Assembly (NCBI RefSeq): GCF_039532215.1
Contig: NZ_BAAARN010000005.1
Span: 408,422-472,421, forward strand
Reading direction: 5' to 3'
From: Pedococcus aerophilus
Lineage (GTDB): Bacteria; Actinomycetota; Actinomycetes; Actinomycetales; Dermatophilaceae
DNA: 64,000 nt
A model generated the notes under the pieces. The model worked only from the letters and a program-made list of their open reading frames with translations, ran no database searches and was not told the DNA's origin. Positions within the stretch are counted from its first letter, which is position 1. Each line of letters begins with the position of its first letter. Made by a program: the position numbers and the translations under genes. Shown here one piece after another: positions 6,874-34,534 of this stretch.

Positions 6874-7881
6874 TCAGGACTCGAGGTACCGCTCGTGCCA
6901 CCCGGCGGTCACGCCCTCCGCGACCTCGTCGAGGGACGGCGCCTGCCGCCAGGGCTGTCCGTGCGCCCGCAGGATCGCGAGACACTCGTCCAGTCGGGAC
7001 TGGCAGCGCGCCACCGCCTCGACGCGCTCGCTCTCGGGGACGCCGACGGACCCGGTCCAGATGGCCCGCCCGGCCATGAAGCCGCACGCACCTGCCTCGG
7101 CGACGATGGCCAGCTGTCGGCGGAACACGTCATACGTCCCCGAGCCGGACAGCATCACCCACGGCGTCCCGGCGCACGCGGCGTCGATGGCCCGTGCGGC
7201 ATCGACCGCGGCGGCCTCCGAGCCGTCCACCAGGTCACCGGGGAACTCGGACTTCAGGACGTCGATCCCCAGGCCCACGAACTCTCCGGCCGCCCCGACC
7301 AACGTCTCCTGGCGCTCGGCGCGCGCAGCCTCGCTCGTCGGGTCCTGGCCCTCGGCGGGGTACCAGAGCGGCTCGACCACCAAGGGGATCTGGTGGCGGT
7401 CGCAGTCTGCGACGAGGCCCTCGACGAGCCGACGGTTGTCGTCGGCGTCGGCAGCGTCGGGACGCCACCAGACGACCATCTTCACGGCGTCCGCACCGAG
7501 GGTCTTGATCTTCTCGACGGTCCACTGCTCGCGCAGCGCGGTCTGCGTCCCGAAGCCGCCGTCGGGCTGGTAGCTGAGCGCCTCGATGCCGGTGATGATC
7601 CCCGTGCTGGCCGGGATCATCCCGGTGACGATGCCCTGCGACAGGGACCAGAGCGGGTCCACGAGGAAGGCGCTCGCGTGGGGGGCGAGCTCGGCGATGA
7701 GCTCCAGCTTGCTGCGCGTGGCCTCGGCGGACGTGACCCGGCGCCAGTCCGGGTCGATCATCGCCAGGTAGTTCTCGGGGTGGTCGATGGCAAGCGTCGC
7801 GATGTACCCGTCCGCGGTGGAGATCCGCGTCATCGACCGCAGCTTGCCGAGGCTCTGGGGACCGCTCAACCAGTGAGTCAT
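6874..7881 (-). CDS. LacD/DeoC-type class I aldolase (tagatose-bisphosphate aldolase-like)
   Basis: The 335-residue protein matches class I LacD-type TIM-barrel aldolases. AIDHPENY (D33) opens the first strand, AVKMVVWWRP (K134) is the usual second lysine region, and DVLKSEFPG carries the likely Schiff-base lysine K210. Related enzymes cleave tagatose 1,6-bisphosphate or 6-deoxy-6-sulfofructose 1-phosphate. The start at 7881 is fixed by a TAGGTT hexamer 7 nt upstream. It diverges from a PfkB kinase, which could supply its sugar-phosphate substrate. Which sugar is used cannot be decided here. Confidence 0.75.
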   Translation of the reverse strand: MTHWLSGPQSLGKLRSMTRISTADGYIATLAIDHPENYLAMIDPDWRRVTSAEATRSKLELIAELAPHASAFLVDPLWSLSQGIVTGMIPASTGIITGIEALSYQPDGGFGTQTALREQWTVEKIKTLGADAVKMVVWWRPDAADADDNRRLVEGLVADCDRHQIPLVVEPLWYPAEGQDPTSEAARAERQETLVGAAGEFVGLGIDVLKSEFPGDLVDGSEAAAVDAARAIDAACAGTPWVMLSGSGTYDVFRRQLAIVAEAGACGFMAGRAIWTGSVGVPESERVEAVARCQSRLDECLAILRAHGQPWRQAPSLDEVAEGVTAGWHERYLES

Positions 7882-28672: not shown

Positions 28673-29146
28673 ATGTCGCGTCCCACCACCGTGCCCGCGT
28701 TCAGTCTCGTCGCCCTCACCGCAGTACTCCTCACCGGAGGCTGCGGGTCCTCCAGCGACACCGCGACCACTCGGACGGTGACGAGCTCGTCCAGCAGCGC
28801 CTCCTCCTACCCGATCACCATCGAACGCAGCGGGGGCATCGCCGGGTTCGCCGACAAGGTCGTCGTGGAGCAGGACGGCTCGGCCACCGTGACGACGAAG
28901 TCCGGCACCAGCACGTGCACCGTGGGCCCCGAGACGCTCACGGCGCTCGCCCGGACGGCCACGGCCGGGGCGACCGGATCGACCACGACGGCCCCGCCCG
29001 GCGCGGACGCGATGGTCGTCACCCTCACGACCTCGAGGGGCACCATGGCCCTCGACGAGGGAGATCTCCCCGGCACCGCGCCCGAGGTGGGTGCCCTGCT
29101 CGAGGACCTCGCCAGGTCTGCCGCTGAACGGACCACCTGCCGCTGA
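28673..29146 (+). CDS. Emfourin-like lipoprotein (candidate M4 protease inhibitor)
   Basis: The 157-residue protein has a lipoprotein signal (hydrophobic [11 protein letters not shown] with the modified Cys in LLTGGC) and a Ser/Thr linker. Its small domain begins [20 protein letters not shown], continues with alternating [11 protein letters not shown], and ends [18 protein letters not shown] then [11 protein letters not shown]. The R-S-G-G-(F/I)-A-G start, mid-domain D-G, and final strand followed by a short helix are the pattern I know for protealysin inhibitor (emfourin) proteins. It converges on an M4 protease gene 59 bp away, the classic gene pairing. Membrane anchoring of such an inhibitor is unusual. 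Inhibition itself is inferred. Confidence 0.65.
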
Positions 29147-29150
29147 ACGC

Positions 29151-29190
29151 GATGGTGCGCCGCCGACCTCGTGGTCGGCGGCGCACCATC
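29151..29190. terminator. 18-bp perfect hairpin between emfourin-like and M4 genes
   Basis: 29151-29168 pairs exactly with 29173-29190 around a TCGT loop, directly after the stop at 29146 and before the end of the converging M4 gene at 29206. It probably serves both directions. Confidence 0.88.
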
Positions 29191-29205
29191 ATCGATGGGC
29201 GTTGG

Positions 29206-30777
29206 TCAGCAGGTCTGCGAACCCGCCGGGACGGCGATGGCGTCGAACGCGGACTTCACGGCGACACAGGTCGGAGAGCCGGCGCCGTACAGCTCCTTGG
29301 CCGAGGCGATGGCGCCTTCACGGGCGGCCTTGTAGTCGCTGCGCGAGGTGAGCTTCGTGGACAGCGTGCGGTACCAGACCTTCTCGATGTTGGTCCGCCC
29401 TGCGCCGGTGACGGCAGGGGCGCTGCCGCACACGGGGCTGTTGTATGCGACGCCGTTGACGGTCTTCGCGCCAGAGCCCTCGGAGGCCAGGAAGAACCAG
29501 TGATTCAGCGGGCCGGAGGAGTAGTGCGGGTCGAGGTTCCGGGTGCCGGTGGTCCAGCAGTCCTGGGACCGGCCGTCCTTGCTCGGCCTGTCCATGTAGC
29601 GCAGCGGCGTGCCGTTGCCGTTGATGTCGATCTTCTCGCCGATGAGGTAGTCACCCGGGTCGGCGGCAGAGGCGGCGTAGAACTCCACGGCGGTGCCGAA
29701 GATGTCGGACGTCGACTCGTTCAGGCCCCCCGCGTCACCGCGGTAGACGAGGCCGGCCGTGTTCTCGGTGACGCCGTGGCTCATCTCGTGCCCGGCCACG
29801 TCGATCGAGGTGAGGGGCTTGGCGTTGCCGGCCCCGTCGCCGTACGTCATCTGGGTGCCGTCCCAGAACGCGTTGACGTAGGCGTTGCCGTAGTGGACCC
29901 GGCTGCGCGCGCCGACGCCGGTGTCCCAGATGCCGCTTCGGCCCTGGACGTTCTTGTAGTAGTCGAACGTCTTCTCGGCGCCGTAGTGGGCGTCGACCGC
30001 GGCGGTCTGGCGCGAGCTCACCGAGCCGTTGCCCCAGATGTCGTCGGCATCGGTGAACTGCGTGCCGGTCCCCGTCGTCGCGCCGTTGAGGTCGGTTGTG
30101 TAGTTCCCGACCGAGTCCTTGAGCTGGTAGCTGCCCCCGGACAGGGTCGTGCCGAGCGTGACGGTGCCGGAGTACTGCGAGTTGCCGGTGCCCTCCACGA
30201 TGTCGTCGTAGCTGTCCAGCGTGGCCCCGCTCCTCGCGTCGACGATGGTGTGCAGACGACTCGGGGTCTGGTCGGCCCTGACCCCCTCGGTGACGACGTC
30301 GTAGGCGAGGCGCGGTCCGGAGGCCGCGGCATACACGACGAGGTCCGAGCCGGCGGCGGTCCCGGCCTTGGCCGCCTTGCGGGCCTGCCCGGCCGACAGG
30401 CTGGGCGACGTCGCGACCTCGACCGACTTCGTGGCGTTCCAGCGCACCGACTTCGTGGCACCGCCTGCGGCCCGTTCGACGACGAGGTCGCCGCCGATCA
30501 CCCTGAGGCCGTTGAAGGTCCGCTCGTACCGCACGTGCTTCGTGCCGTCGGTGTCGGTGACGACGCTCTTGGCCACGAGCTTCTGTCCGGAGCCGAGGCC
30601 GAGGGCCTTGGCCGCGTCGGCCACCTTGGACTGCTCGGCGACGACGGCCGGGGCCGCCGCGGCGGACCGGGCGGTCGAACCGCCGGTGGCCGGGGCGGCC
30701 TGGGCGGCGGCGAGCGGCGTCGCGACAGCTGCTGCGACGACCACGCCGAACGCGAGGCCTGCTGACATCTTCTTCAC
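29206..30777 (-). CDS. Secreted M4 (thermolysin-family) metalloprotease, short form
   Basis: The 523-residue preproprotease has a Sec signal (MKKMSAGLAFGVVVAAAVA, cleavage near AQAAPA), an FTP/PepSY propeptide (about residues 55-195), then the M4 catalytic domain. H330-E-M-S-H334 binds zinc with E331 as catalytic base; E354 in GGLNESTSD is the third ligand; GPLNHWFFLASEGS is the later active-site region. It ends in a Cys (SQTC) without the extra C-terminal domain of its paralogue at 32489. GTG 30777 has AAGGAG 5 nt upstream. It lies 106 bp downstream of the M28 gene. Confidence 0.93.
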   Translation of the reverse strand: MKKMSAGLAFGVVVAAAVATPLAAAQAAPATGGSTARSAAAAPAVVAEQSKVADAAKALGLGSGQKLVAKSVVTDTDGTKHVRYERTFNGLRVIGGDLVVERAAGGATKSVRWNATKSVEVATSPSLSAGQARKAAKAGTAAGSDLVVYAAASGPRLAYDVVTEGVRADQTPSRLHTIVDARSGATLDSYDDIVEGTGNSQYSGTVTLGTTLSGGSYQLKDSVGNYTTDLNGATTGTGTQFTDADDIWGNGSVSSRQTAAVDAHYGAEKTFDYYKNVQGRSGIWDTGVGARSRVHYGNAYVNAFWDGTQMTYGDGAGNAKPLTSIDVAGHEMSHGVTENTAGLVYRGDAGGLNESTSDIFGTAVEFYAASAADPGDYLIGEKIDINGNGTPLRYMDRPSKDGRSQDCWTTGTRNLDPHYSSGPLNHWFFLASEGSGAKTVNGVAYNSPVCGSAPAVTGAGRTNIEKVWYRTLSTKLTSRSDYKAAREGAIASAKELYGAGSPTCVAVKSAFDAIAVPAGSQTC

Positions 30778-30883: not shown

Positions 30884-32323
30884 TCAGCTCACGGTCACGG
30901 CGGTGTCGTCGACGACGAACGAGGTCTGGAGCGAGGAGTCCTCTGACATCAGGAGCTTCACCGAGACGGTCCTGCCCTTGTAGGCGGTGAGGTTGAAGGA
31001 CTTCTGGGCGTACGTGGCGTTGGCACCGACGTTGGAGTAGGTCGCCAGCGTCGTGGTGGTGGCGCCGTCGACCACCTGCGCACGCAGGGTGTCGTAGGCG
31101 GTGCTCCCGGTCTCGGCCGTGTCGACCCGGAGCCAGAACGTCAGCGTCGCCGAGGTGGCCGTCGAGGGGATGGTCACGGACTGTGCGATGTTCTCCGACG
31201 ACGTCGCGCCGTTGCCGCCGAGCCACGCCTTCCACGACCCGGTGCGCGCCGGGCGCCCGGTGTTGTTGGTGATCGGGCCGGACGTCCCGGTCCAGCTCAC
31301 CGCGCCGGACTCGAAGCCGGGGTTCGCCAGCAGGTTCGAGCCGGCGGGGGGCGTCGTCGTCCCGTAGTCCTTGGCCGCATAGAGCCAGAGCATGTGACCC
31401 AGGGCGTCGATGTTGCGGTCGAGGGCGGTGAGGTCGAGGTTCGAGACCGAGTCGCACGAGGAGTGGTAGCAGGGGTCGAAGGCCCGCCCGGAGGTCCCGC
31501 CCCACTTCTGCGCCTGGGCCGACGTCTTGAGGGTCTCCGCGCCGCTGAAGATGCCCGCGGTGGGGATGCCATAGGAGCGGAACGCGGCGTGGTCGCTGCG
31601 ACCCTGCACGTCGATGTACTCCCAAGGGATGCCCTTGGACGTGTAGTAGCTGGTGAACTCGTCGCGTGCGCTGTTGCCGGCGGGGTTGTCGTCGTAGACG
31701 AAGTAGCCCGGGTTGGGCGAAGCGATCATGTCGACGTTGAGGTAGACCCGGATCTTGTCCTTCTCCGCGGTGGAGAGGCTGTTCATGTAGTACTTCGAGC
31801 CGAGCAGACCGAGCTCCTCGGCGCCCCAGAACCCCACGCGCAGCTTGTTCTTCGCGCTCTGGCCGCTCGCGGCATACGCGAGGGCCGCCTCGAGCACCCC
31901 CGCGCTCCCGGAGCCGTTGTCGTTGATGCCGGGGCCGTTCGACACGCTGTCGAGGTGGCCACCGAGCATGACCACGTTGTTGGCGTCGCCGCCGGGGAGC
32001 TCGGCGATGAGGTTCTGCGTGGTGCCGGCACTGGTACTGAAGCTCTGCACCGTGGTCGTGAAGCCCGCTGCGTCGAGCTTGCCCTTCACGTAGTTGATGG
32101 AGGCCGTGTACCCCGAGCGGCCGGTGTAGCGGTTGCCGCCGTTGGCGGTCGCGATCGCCTGGAGCTGGTCGAGGTGCGCCTTGGTGTTGGTGACCGAGAT
32201 GTCGGGGCTGGCGGCGGCCTGCGTGGCGGGCGCGAGGGCGACCAGGCCGGCTGCGGCGACGGCCGTGGCGGTCAGCGGCGCGAGGAGGCGGGCGAGTGGG
32301 GACCGGTGCTGCGTGGGAGGCAT
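30884..32323 (-). CDS. Secreted M28 zinc aminopeptidase with C-terminal binding domain
   Basis: The 479-residue Streptomyces griseus aminopeptidase-like protein begins with a signal peptide ending ATQAAA. The catalytic domain shows the zinc ligands and bases H123 (GGHLDS), D135 (GINDNGSG), E169/E170 (GAEELGLLG), D198 (NVDMIASP) and H287 (CYHSSCD). From about residue 330 a separate ~150-residue domain starts NLLANPGFESGAVSW and ends SFVVDDTAVTVS; it is nearly the same as the C-terminal domain of the M4 protease just upstream. It should remove N-terminal residues from peptides made by the M4 enzymes. An AGGAAG site precedes ATG 32323. Confidence 0.92.
   Translation of the reverse strand: MPPTQHRSPLARLLAPLTATAVAAAGLVALAPATQAAASPDISVTNTKAHLDQLQAIATANGGNRYTGRSGYTASINYVKGKLDAAGFTTTVQSFSTSAGTTQNLIAELPGGDANNVVMLGGHLDSVSNGPGINDNGSGSAGVLEAALAYAASGQSAKNKLRVGFWGAEELGLLGSKYYMNSLSTAEKDKIRVYLNVDMIASPNPGYFVYDDNPAGNSARDEFTSYYTSKGIPWEYIDVQGRSDHAAFRSYGIPTAGIFSGAETLKTSAQAQKWGGTSGRAFDPCYHSSCDSVSNLDLTALDRNIDALGHMLWLYAAKDYGTTTPPAGSNLLANPGFESGAVSWTGTSGPITNNTGRPARTGSWKAWLGGNGATSSENIAQSVTIPSTATSATLTFWLRVDTAETGSTAYDTLRAQVVDGATTTTLATYSNVGANATYAQKSFNLTAYKGRTVSVKLLMSEDSSLQTSFVVDDTAVTVS
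30887..31336 (-). repeat. 450-bp C-terminal module, copy A (in M28 gene)
   Basis: This codes for the NPGFESGAVSW...SFVVDDTA domain. It aligns without gaps to 32492-32941 at both DNA and protein level, with long identical stretches such as the TGTSGPITNNTGR block. Confidence 0.85.
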
Positions 32324-32443
32324 GGGTGGCTTCCTGGTGGGCGTTCCCGGCAGCGGTGGCCGGCGCGGGACACGGACGGGGTGCACGTGCGGAGGGACGC
32401 GGTGGGCGCCCTGGGGTGACACGGGGACGCGGGGGTGTGGCAC

Positions 32444-32483
32444 GGACGTGGGCCGGCGCTCGCACGGGCGCCGGCCCACGTCC
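32444..32483 (-). terminator. 16-bp perfect hairpin after the long M4 gene
   Basis: 32444-32459 pairs exactly with 32468-32483 (8-nt loop), 6 bp beyond the stop of the M4 gene at 32489 and upstream of the M28 gene. Confidence 0.85.
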
Positions 32484-32488
32484 CCTCG

Positions 32489-34534
32489 TCAGCTGGTGGC
32501 GAGGGCGGTGTCGTCCACGACGAACGACGTCTGCAGCGAGGAGTCCTCGTTCATGAGGAACTTCACCGAGATCGTCTTGCCCTTGTAGGCCGTCACGTTG
32601 AACGACTTCTGGGTGTACGTCGCGTTGGTGCCGACGTTGGAGTACGTCGCCAGCGTCGTGGTCGTGGCGCCGTCGACGACCTGGACCTTCATGGTGTCGT
32701 AGGCCGTGCTGCCGGACTCAGCGGTGTCGCTGGACAGGTAGAACGACAGCGTGGCCGCGGTCACCGTCGACGGGATGGTGACGCTCTGCTGGATCGTCTC
32801 CGTCGTGGTGGCGCCGTTGCCGCCGAGCCAGGCCTTCCACGAGCCCGTGCGGGCTGCGCGGCCGGTGTTGTTCGTGATCGGGCCGGACGTGCCGGTCCAG
32901 CTCACGGCACCGGACTCGAAGCCCGGGTTCTGCAGGAGGTTGCCACCGGTGGGCGGCGGCGTGGTGCCACCGCAGGTCTCGGTGCCGGCCGGGACGGCGA
33001 TTGCCGTGAAGGCCTTCTCCACCGCGGTGCAGGTCGCGCTCGTCGCGCCGAACAGCTCCTTGGCCGAGGCGATCGCACCGTTGCGGGCCGCGGCGTAGTT
33101 GCTGCTCGAGGTGAGCTTCGTCGACAGCGTGCGGTACCAGACCTTCTCGACGTTGCTGCGGCCGGCGCCGGTCACGGTCGAGCCGTCACAGGTGGGGCTG
33201 TTGTAGGCGACACCGTTGACGGTGCGGGCACCGGAGCCCTCGGAGGCCAGGAAGAACCAGTGGTTGAGCGGACCCGAGGAGTAGTGCGGGTCGAGGTTCT
33301 TCGTGTTGGTGGTCCAGCAGTCCTGCGAGGCGCCGTCCTTGCTGGGCTTGTCCATGTAGCGCAGCGGGGTGCCGTTGCCGTTGATGTTGATCTTCTCGCC
33401 GATGAGGTAGTCACCCGGGTCGGCGGAGGAGTTCGCGTAGAACTCGACGGCGGTGCCGAAGATGTCGGAGGTCGCCTCGTTCAGGCCACCCGCGTCACCC
33501 GAGTAGGCCAGGCCCGCGGTGTTCTCGGTGACGCCGTGGCTCATCTCGTGGGCGGCGACGTCGATGGAGGTGAGCGGCTTGGCGTTGCCGGCGCCGTCGC
33601 CATAGGTCATCTGGGTGCCGTCCCAGAACGCGTTGTTGTACGCGTTGCCGTAGTGCACGCGGCTGCGTGCGCCGACACCGGTGTTCCAGATCCCGTTGCG
33701 GCCCAACACGTTCTTGTAGTAGGCGAAGGTCTTCTCAGCGCCGTACTGGGCGTCGACGCCAGCGGTCTGGCGCGACGTGGTGGAGCCGTTGCCCCAGACG
33801 TCGTCGGCGTCCGTGAACTGGGTGCCCGTGCCGGAGGTCGCACCGTTGAGGTCGGTCGTGTAGTTCCCGACCGAGTCCTTCAGCTGGTAGGTGCTGCCCG
33901 ACAGGGTCGAGTTGAGGGTCACGGTGCCGGAGTACATCGAGTTGCCGGTGCCGTTGACGACCTCGTCCCACGAGGTCAGGACGGCGCCGCTCCTGGCGTC
34001 GACGAGGGTGTGCAGGCGGCTCGGGGTCTGGTCGGCCTTGACCCCCTCGGTGACGACGTCCCAGGCCAGGCGCGGCGATCCGCTGCCGGCCCAGACGACG
34101 AGCTCGCCGTCGTTCTTCTTCGGCGCGTAGCCGGCGCGCTTGGCGCCCGAGCTCTCGGCCGAGGTCTCGCTGACGGAGGGGCTGGTCGAGGCGACGGCCA
34201 CCTTGCCGTTGCCGTTCCAGCGCACGTCGCGCACCGACCCGGACTTCGCCTTCTCGACGACGAGGTCGCCGCCGACGACGCGCAGGCCCTTGTAGGTGCG
34301 GTCGTAGCGGACGTGCTTGGTGCCGTCGGGGTCGGTGACGGCGTTGCGGACGACGAGCTTCTCGTCGCTCGAGAGCCCCAGGGCGGTGCGGTCCTGGTCG
34401 GCCCCTGCCTGGGCGGTGGCGGCAGGCGCCTGGTTCGGTGCCGCGGTGGGGGCGGCGGAGGCGGCAGACAGTGGGGTGGCCACTGCTGCTGCGACTGCGA
34501 CGCCGAGTGCGGCGCCGGTGGACAGTCGGATCAC
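32489..34534 (-). CDS. Secreted M4 (thermolysin-family) metalloprotease, long form with C-terminal domain
   Basis: The 681-residue preproprotease has a signal peptide (VIRLSTGAALGVAVAAAVA), an FTP/PepSY propeptide to about residue 195, then an M4 catalytic domain with H329-E-M-S-H333 and E353 (GGLNEATSD). After a GGTTPPPTGG linker it carries the ~150-residue binding-type domain shared with the M28 enzyme. The catalytic half is highly similar to the protease at 29206, with long identical stretches, so the two are recent paralogues. GTG 34534 has AGAGGA 7 nt upstream. A vegetative-type promoter is visible about 110 bp upstream. Confidence 0.93.
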   Translation of the reverse strand: MIRLSTGAALGVAVAAAVATPLSAASAAPTAAPNQAPAATAQAGADQDRTALGLSSDEKLVVRNAVTDPDGTKHVRYDRTYKGLRVVGGDLVVEKAKSGSVRDVRWNGNGKVAVASTSPSVSETSAESSGAKRAGYAPKKNDGELVVWAGSGSPRLAWDVVTEGVKADQTPSRLHTLVDARSGAVLTSWDEVVNGTGNSMYSGTVTLNSTLSGSTYQLKDSVGNYTTDLNGATSGTGTQFTDADDVWGNGSTTSRQTAGVDAQYGAEKTFAYYKNVLGRNGIWNTGVGARSRVHYGNAYNNAFWDGTQMTYGDGAGNAKPLTSIDVAAHEMSHGVTENTAGLAYSGDAGGLNEATSDIFGTAVEFYANSSADPGDYLIGEKININGNGTPLRYMDKPSKDGASQDCWTTNTKNLDPHYSSGPLNHWFFLASEGSGARTVNGVAYNSPTCDGSTVTGAGRSNVEKVWYRTLSTKLTSSSNYAAARNGAIASAKELFGATSATCTAVEKAFTAIAVPAGTETCGGTTPPPTGGNLLQNPGFESGAVSWTGTSGPITNNTGRAARTGSWKAWLGGNGATTTETIQQSVTIPSTVTAATLSFYLSSDTAESGSTAYDTMKVQVVDGATTTTLATYSNVGTNATYTQKSFNVTAYKGKTISVKFLMNEDSSLQTSFVVDDTALATS
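32492..32941 (-). repeat. 450-bp C-terminal module, copy B (in long M4 gene)
   Basis: This partner of 30887-31336 codes for NLLQNPGFESGAVSW...SFVVDDTALATS. The two copies have the same length, pointing to duplication or gene conversion within the protease island. Confidence 0.85.

Follow-up and report, generated by a model that had tools for sequence, protein, structure and literature searches.

The window, the 64,000-nucleotide stretch analysed here (source genome 4.02 Mb), encodes a small lipoprotein. Sequence comparison places it in a real branch of lipoproteins within the emfourin superfamily, and its gene is linked to those of secreted M4 proteases. We put a probability of about 0.65 on the reading that this lipid-anchored emfourin branch inhibits the neighbouring secreted M4 enzyme at the surface and thereby guards the cell's own surface proteins. 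Inhibition of these M4 enzymes and protection of surface proteins are plausible steps; lipidation, the contact residues and the protective purpose are predicted. The features are as follows.

28673..29146, + strand: emfourin-like lipoprotein, 157 aa, whole coding sequence with stop (ATG at 28673, stop at 29146; from the sequence and family homologues)
28673..28741, + strand: signal peptide, residues 1–23, hydrophobic, with a lipobox-like TGG preceding Cys24 (from the sequence)
28742..28744, + strand: Cys24, predicted lipidated residue (from the sequence)
28745..28807, + strand: Ser/Thr-rich linker from lipid anchor to domain (from the sequence)
28808..29143, + strand: emfourin-like domain (hhalign; AlphaFold2 model with the order bbbb-a-bb-aa)
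28826..28846, + strand: RSGGIAG loop between strands 1 and 2, residues 52–58 (conserved in homologues and in the emfourin set)
29006..29008, + strand: Asp112, immediately before strand 5, candidate active-loop residue (from the alignment)
29151..29190, no strand assigned: perfect 18-bp inverted repeat with a 4-nt loop between the convergent stop codons (from the sequence)
29206..30777, − strand: secreted M4 protease A, 523 aa, with FTP propeptide, M4 and M4_C domains, candidate target (sequence, Pfam)
30884..32323, − strand: secreted M28 peptidase between the two M4 genes, with a C-terminal domain like that of M4 protease B (predicted start)
32489..34534, − strand: secreted M4 protease B with a C-terminal domain weakly like InhA-like MAM, candidate target (predicted GTG start)

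The preliminary description had a lipoprotein gene converging on an M4 protease gene and adjoining two exported M4 enzymes. This arrangement was found as described: the lipoprotein gene (+) and the gene of protease A (−) lie on opposite strands with 59 bp between their stop codons, and the second M4 gene lies outside the span that was described. A Pfam search identified FTP, Peptidase_M4 and Peptidase_M4_C domains in both M4 proteins, and HEMSH...E active-site motifs were recognized in both by eye. The inverted repeat between the convergent genes is perhaps a two-way terminator. A scan for terminator patterns, which requires a T run, did not call it; no T run follows the repeat.

The lipoprotein carries a signal peptide, a lipobox and a cysteine at +1, as expected for bacterial lipoproteins. 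The signal ends in LLTGGC and the domain starts with [14 protein letters not shown]. The lipobox, TGGC, falls outside the strict form [LVI][ASTVI][GAS]C; its conservation was assessed with the looser pattern [LVIMFAT][ASTGVILPQ][GASN]C. A profile search detected homologues in 43 of 186 family genomes (45 copies), and a lipobox-like cysteine lies upstream in 43 of these copies: in 41 of 42 by the loose pattern and, for copies added later, by eye (present in L080 and L129, none in L071). The distance from this cysteine, the nearer candidate being used, to the motif arginine is 18–76 residues. The hydrophobic signal, Cys24 and this conserved setting uphold the lipoprotein reading made earlier, with Cys24 as the putative site of lipidation.

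At E 0.001 the lipoprotein profile matched 44 of the 186 genomes, and the weakest match, G035 (E 8e-4), was removed since it has no motif, which left 43. G357 (E 7e-4) is another row that was not used, as the matching stretch reads as an ABC transporter ATPase. Also left out were three weak matches that the profile search did not confirm: L077 (G127), L079 (G054) and, of the two loci in G051, L081. L036 and L006 are one locus and were counted once; L041 and L058 are near contig ends.

Two cysteines are conserved in the family, at core positions 40 (41 of 42 copies) and 114 (42 of 42), and they fit an exported protein. Two copies, L064 and L071 (G088 and G089), have no signal peptide, and the same two have lost the first of these cysteines, as would be expected if the pair formed an extracellular disulfide. 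Both belong to genus g35, and their genes (L064:6953-7333 and L071:6951-7340) are still downstream of M4 and M28 genes. The cysteine pair was not found in the lipoproteins of other families (L125-L127). In this family the membrane-tethered emfourin branch is probably disulfide-stabilised.

The RSGGIAG sequence of the 157-aa protein had been noted previously as an emfourin-like RSGG(I/F)AG pattern. It is present in the window protein, and in alignment A1 its R, GG and A are invariant (n = 42 copies), with the G after RxGGxA retained in 40. Three copies added later read GGIVG (L071), GGAAA (L080) or have lost the motif (L129, the second copy in G141). The position of Asp112 is D in 36 of the 42 aligned copies.

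By itself, the window protein gave no relevant match in Pfam, NCBIfam or PDB, and none to PF20242 in Pfam at E up to 5; homologues were therefore collected for profile comparison. PF20242 touches just two of the 42 homologues (best E 0.03), and the window protein stays below the curated Pfam score. Emfourins were gathered independently with PF20242, which matched 91 of the 186 family genomes at E 0.01 (86 above the cut-off) and 20 of 266 genomes of the phylum. The phylum set comprised 18 emfourins, 17 stand-alone and one fused; three of 21 phylum loci (L193, L194 and L207) were not recovered, and two of the 18 used (L192 and L204) have no motif in the stretch.

Compared profile to profile, the lipoproteins matched the 18 phylum emfourins over 86 columns with 95.3% and P 2.3e-8. 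The match to 30 family emfourins (A2) was weaker (82%, P 1e-5). Scores exceeded the maximum of 200 column shuffles for both the phylum set (48.8 vs 19.4) and the family set (34.5 vs 19.8), and the reversed-profile controls scored 8.7 and 10.4. When the RxGGxAG block was cut from both sides, the phylum comparison remained above 200 shuffles (26.7 vs a maximum of 15.5), while the family comparison at 18.5 was not beyond them (1 of 200 higher). Moreover, L125 and L126, lipoproteins from another family of the order, bridge the two groups: they match the lipoprotein profile (E 4.4e-16 and 2.0e-14) and exceed the Pfam Emfourin cut-off of 27 bits with 33.1 and 34.4 bits in the part after the motif.

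Individual positions show the same mixture of likeness and divergence. The emfourin set, like the lipoproteins, has the R and GG of the motif without exception, and the window protein carries RxGGxAG. Asp112, where the strand following the first helix begins, aligns with an aspartate that is invariant in the 30 A2 emfourins. The tyrosine four residues after it, likewise invariant in A2, is Val in the window protein. Homology of the lipoprotein to the emfourin superfamily can thus be considered established from these comparisons, while the lipoprotein falls outside the curated PF20242 family. Of what had been proposed, the relation to emfourins stood, through the profile match and the bridging proteins L125 and L126; the window protein itself is not recognized by the Pfam Emfourin model. 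The check recommended at that time, a profile search against the emfourin domain, gave the 95.3% match that survives removal of the motif in the phylum set.

The best AlphaFold2 model, built from two sequences, has a pLDDT of 77.6 and a pTM of 0.69 with the order bbbb-a-bb-aa. Relative to emfourins the lipoprotein is longer by some 15 columns, which in the model form a beta-hairpin (strands 3 and 4) preceding the first helix; the two conserved cysteines are a further difference. PDB 6zyg, a 'Protealysin-associated protein' that we take to be emfourin (PF20242; M4in of Serratia proteamaculans), was not among the matches listed in a fold comparison that used this two-sequence model as query. The Streptomyces subtilisin inhibitor (SSI), which is freely secreted and acts on subtilisins, gave a Z too low to mean a relation.

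In the family, an M4 gene of the window's subtype lies within 2.6 kb of 35 of the 45 lipoprotein copies and within 400 bp of 32. Thirty-four of these linked pairs are tail to tail (convergent) and one is head to head (divergent); the M4 of L052 is read as two fragments. Outside the family, ten emfourin-like lipoproteins were read (L125-L127 and L182-L188), each of which, by eye, has a cysteine in a lipobox-like setting. Within the 14–16 kb fetched, four of the ten have a secreted-type M4, head to head in every case: near the lipoprotein gene in L127 and L182, about 1.3 kb away in L184 and 3.6 kb in L185.

Such linkage could also arise by shared descent, if an unrelated lipoprotein had been inherited beside the M4 gene and its RSGGIAG were coincidental. 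Consistent with this, the window protein is missed by the Pfam Emfourin model, and sucC occurs in the fetched stretch with the pair in 13 of the 35 linked loci, which are therefore not independent of one another. Nevertheless, sucC is absent from the fetched stretch in the other 22, some of these stretches being short, so that the pair is not merely part of a sucCD neighbourhood. The head-to-head arrangement in L054, L127 and L182, the recurrence of the pairing in other families, and the profile-profile and bridging evidence all argue against a bystander, and we regard this explanation as very improbable.

Lipoprotein and M4 subtype also occur together across genomes. Among the 186 genomes, with M4 matches at or above 59% identity counted as the subtype, 36 have both, 7 the lipoprotein only, 30 the M4 only and 113 neither (Fisher P 1e-13); counted by genus, the figures are 15, 5, 8 and 25 (Fisher P 5e-4). 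Both P values overstate the significance, because the genomes are related. One of the seven lipoprotein-only genomes, G048, is 84% complete. In the 30 M4-only genomes, where one M4 locus each was read, no lipoprotein homologue was found (best E 0.74), which indicates that the M4 enzyme does not need the lipoprotein.

Linkage and co-occurrence also fit a domain that binds in the manner of emfourin and does not inhibit; it would help to dock, fold or retain the M4 precursor or enzyme at the membrane and so keep the protease on the surface. The lipid anchor and the linker of variable length would suit that role. Nevertheless, the M4 enzymes have their own FTP propeptide, and the 30 genomes with an M4 and no lipoprotein at the locus read speak against such a requirement. 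Emfourin itself inhibits: it is reported to act on protealysin and thermolysin and to bind the active-site region of protealysin 1:1 (PMC9505478). Binding without inhibition is accordingly judged unlikely.

The state of the putative contact loops was compared with the presence of the M4. A copy was scored as intact when it had GGxxG plus D, E or N before strand 5, a criterion chosen after the alignment had been viewed. By this measure, all 36 copies from genomes that have the M4 keep both loop elements, as do five of eight from genomes that lack it (P 0.004). The 36 copies are the 35 linked ones plus L058, whose genome has its M4 on another contig. Counting the unlinked second copy of G141 (L129) weakens the test, giving 36 of 37 vs five of eight (P 0.014). 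The same three M4-less copies have lost both elements: G018, one of two in G017, and G051, with G017 and G018 belonging to one genus. The decayed second copy in G141 coexists with an intact, M4-linked first copy. Coupled decay of this kind would be the behaviour of an inhibitor without its enzyme, with the events few in number (two genera and one second copy). A tRNA-Leu gene (6919-7004) lies immediately upstream of the motif-less G141 copy (L129:6905-7468), and the stretch fetched there has no M4.

The seven genomes with the lipoprotein and no M4 of this subtype also allow for a domain directed at M4 proteases of other organisms, competitors or predators, rather than at the cell's own, since five of their eight copies are intact. 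Against a foreign target, a self-encoded M4 is linked to 35 of the 45 copies, and both loops are lost in three of eight copies without an M4 vs one of 37 with it. We consider this reading improbable, somewhat more so than binding without inhibition.

According to the self-protection reading that we favour, the lipoprotein would be exported and lipidated on Cys24, and the flexible linker would hold the domain on the outer face of the cytoplasmic membrane. There, the RSGGIAG loop and the loop that runs up to Asp112, which are the positions conserved in both lipoproteins and emfourins, may obstruct the active-site cleft of the secreted thermolysin-like protease, or proteases, encoded nearby. From the order of the structural elements the two loops are predicted to share one edge of the sheet, the edge that would enter the M4 cleft. 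For emfourin, an NMR study reportedly points to a hydrophobic loop and an Asp that binds zinc. An enzyme maturing at the membrane would be kept from digesting surface proteins of the cell itself. Enzyme that has diffused away would stay active; with its lipid anchor and linker, the lipoprotein would inhibit at the membrane surface only.

Self-protection of organisms that secrete thermolysin-like proteases is usually ascribed to the propeptide; if our reading is true, a tethered inhibitor encoded next to the enzyme would add a second layer, and the emfourin superfamily would extend from the cytoplasm to the cell surface. That lipid-anchored emfourins are, more generally, an actinobacterial self-immunity against the cell's own secreted thermolysin-like proteases, derived from the cytoplasmic protealysin inhibitors or arisen beside them and protecting the zone immediately outside the membrane, seems to us an evenly balanced proposition. 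Some M4 proteases are virulence factors, and small lipoprotein inhibitors of M4 enzymes would be possible leads.

The lipoprotein resembles emfourin (PF20242) in its homologous domain, the RxGGxAG loop, the Asp before the following strand and the adjoining M4 gene. It differs in location and gene arrangement. No lipobox was seen by eye in the upstream residues of the 18 emfourins, whereas the lipoprotein branch has a lipobox-like setting in 43 of 45 copies and so departs from the emfourin trait of lacking an export signal (cytoplasmic). Seventeen of the 18 emfourins have a protealysin-like M4 in the fetched stretch, paired on the same strand or fused to it, while the lipoprotein shows neither arrangement and is convergent with a secreted M4.

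The potempins of Tannerella forsythia are unlike the present lipoprotein in having KLIKK proteases as targets, a gene that directly precedes that of the protease and a Gram-negative host. They nevertheless set a precedent: small inhibitory lipoproteins, each encoded next to its target, an exported protease (PMC7296668). A literature search covering titles and abstract openings, with most subscription journals outside its scope, returned no report of lipoprotein emfourins.

A single PF20242 domain of the source genome scores above the cut-off; it forms the C-terminal part of a protealysin-like M4 encoded on another contig (L004:1489-3153). Of the family's 91 PF20242 rows over the cut-off, 76 fall in open frames of at least 480 aa, some of which were read, so that fusion of M4 and emfourin looks common there. 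Three further emfourin-type matches, in G132, G106 and G128 (L130-L132), were set aside, as they gave no match to our own emfourin model. Within the window, the C-terminal domain shared by the M28 peptidase and the second M4 (30884-34534) is 83% identical at the protein level and has weak InhA-like MAM matches; this identity suggests a recent exchange between the neighbouring exopeptidase genes.
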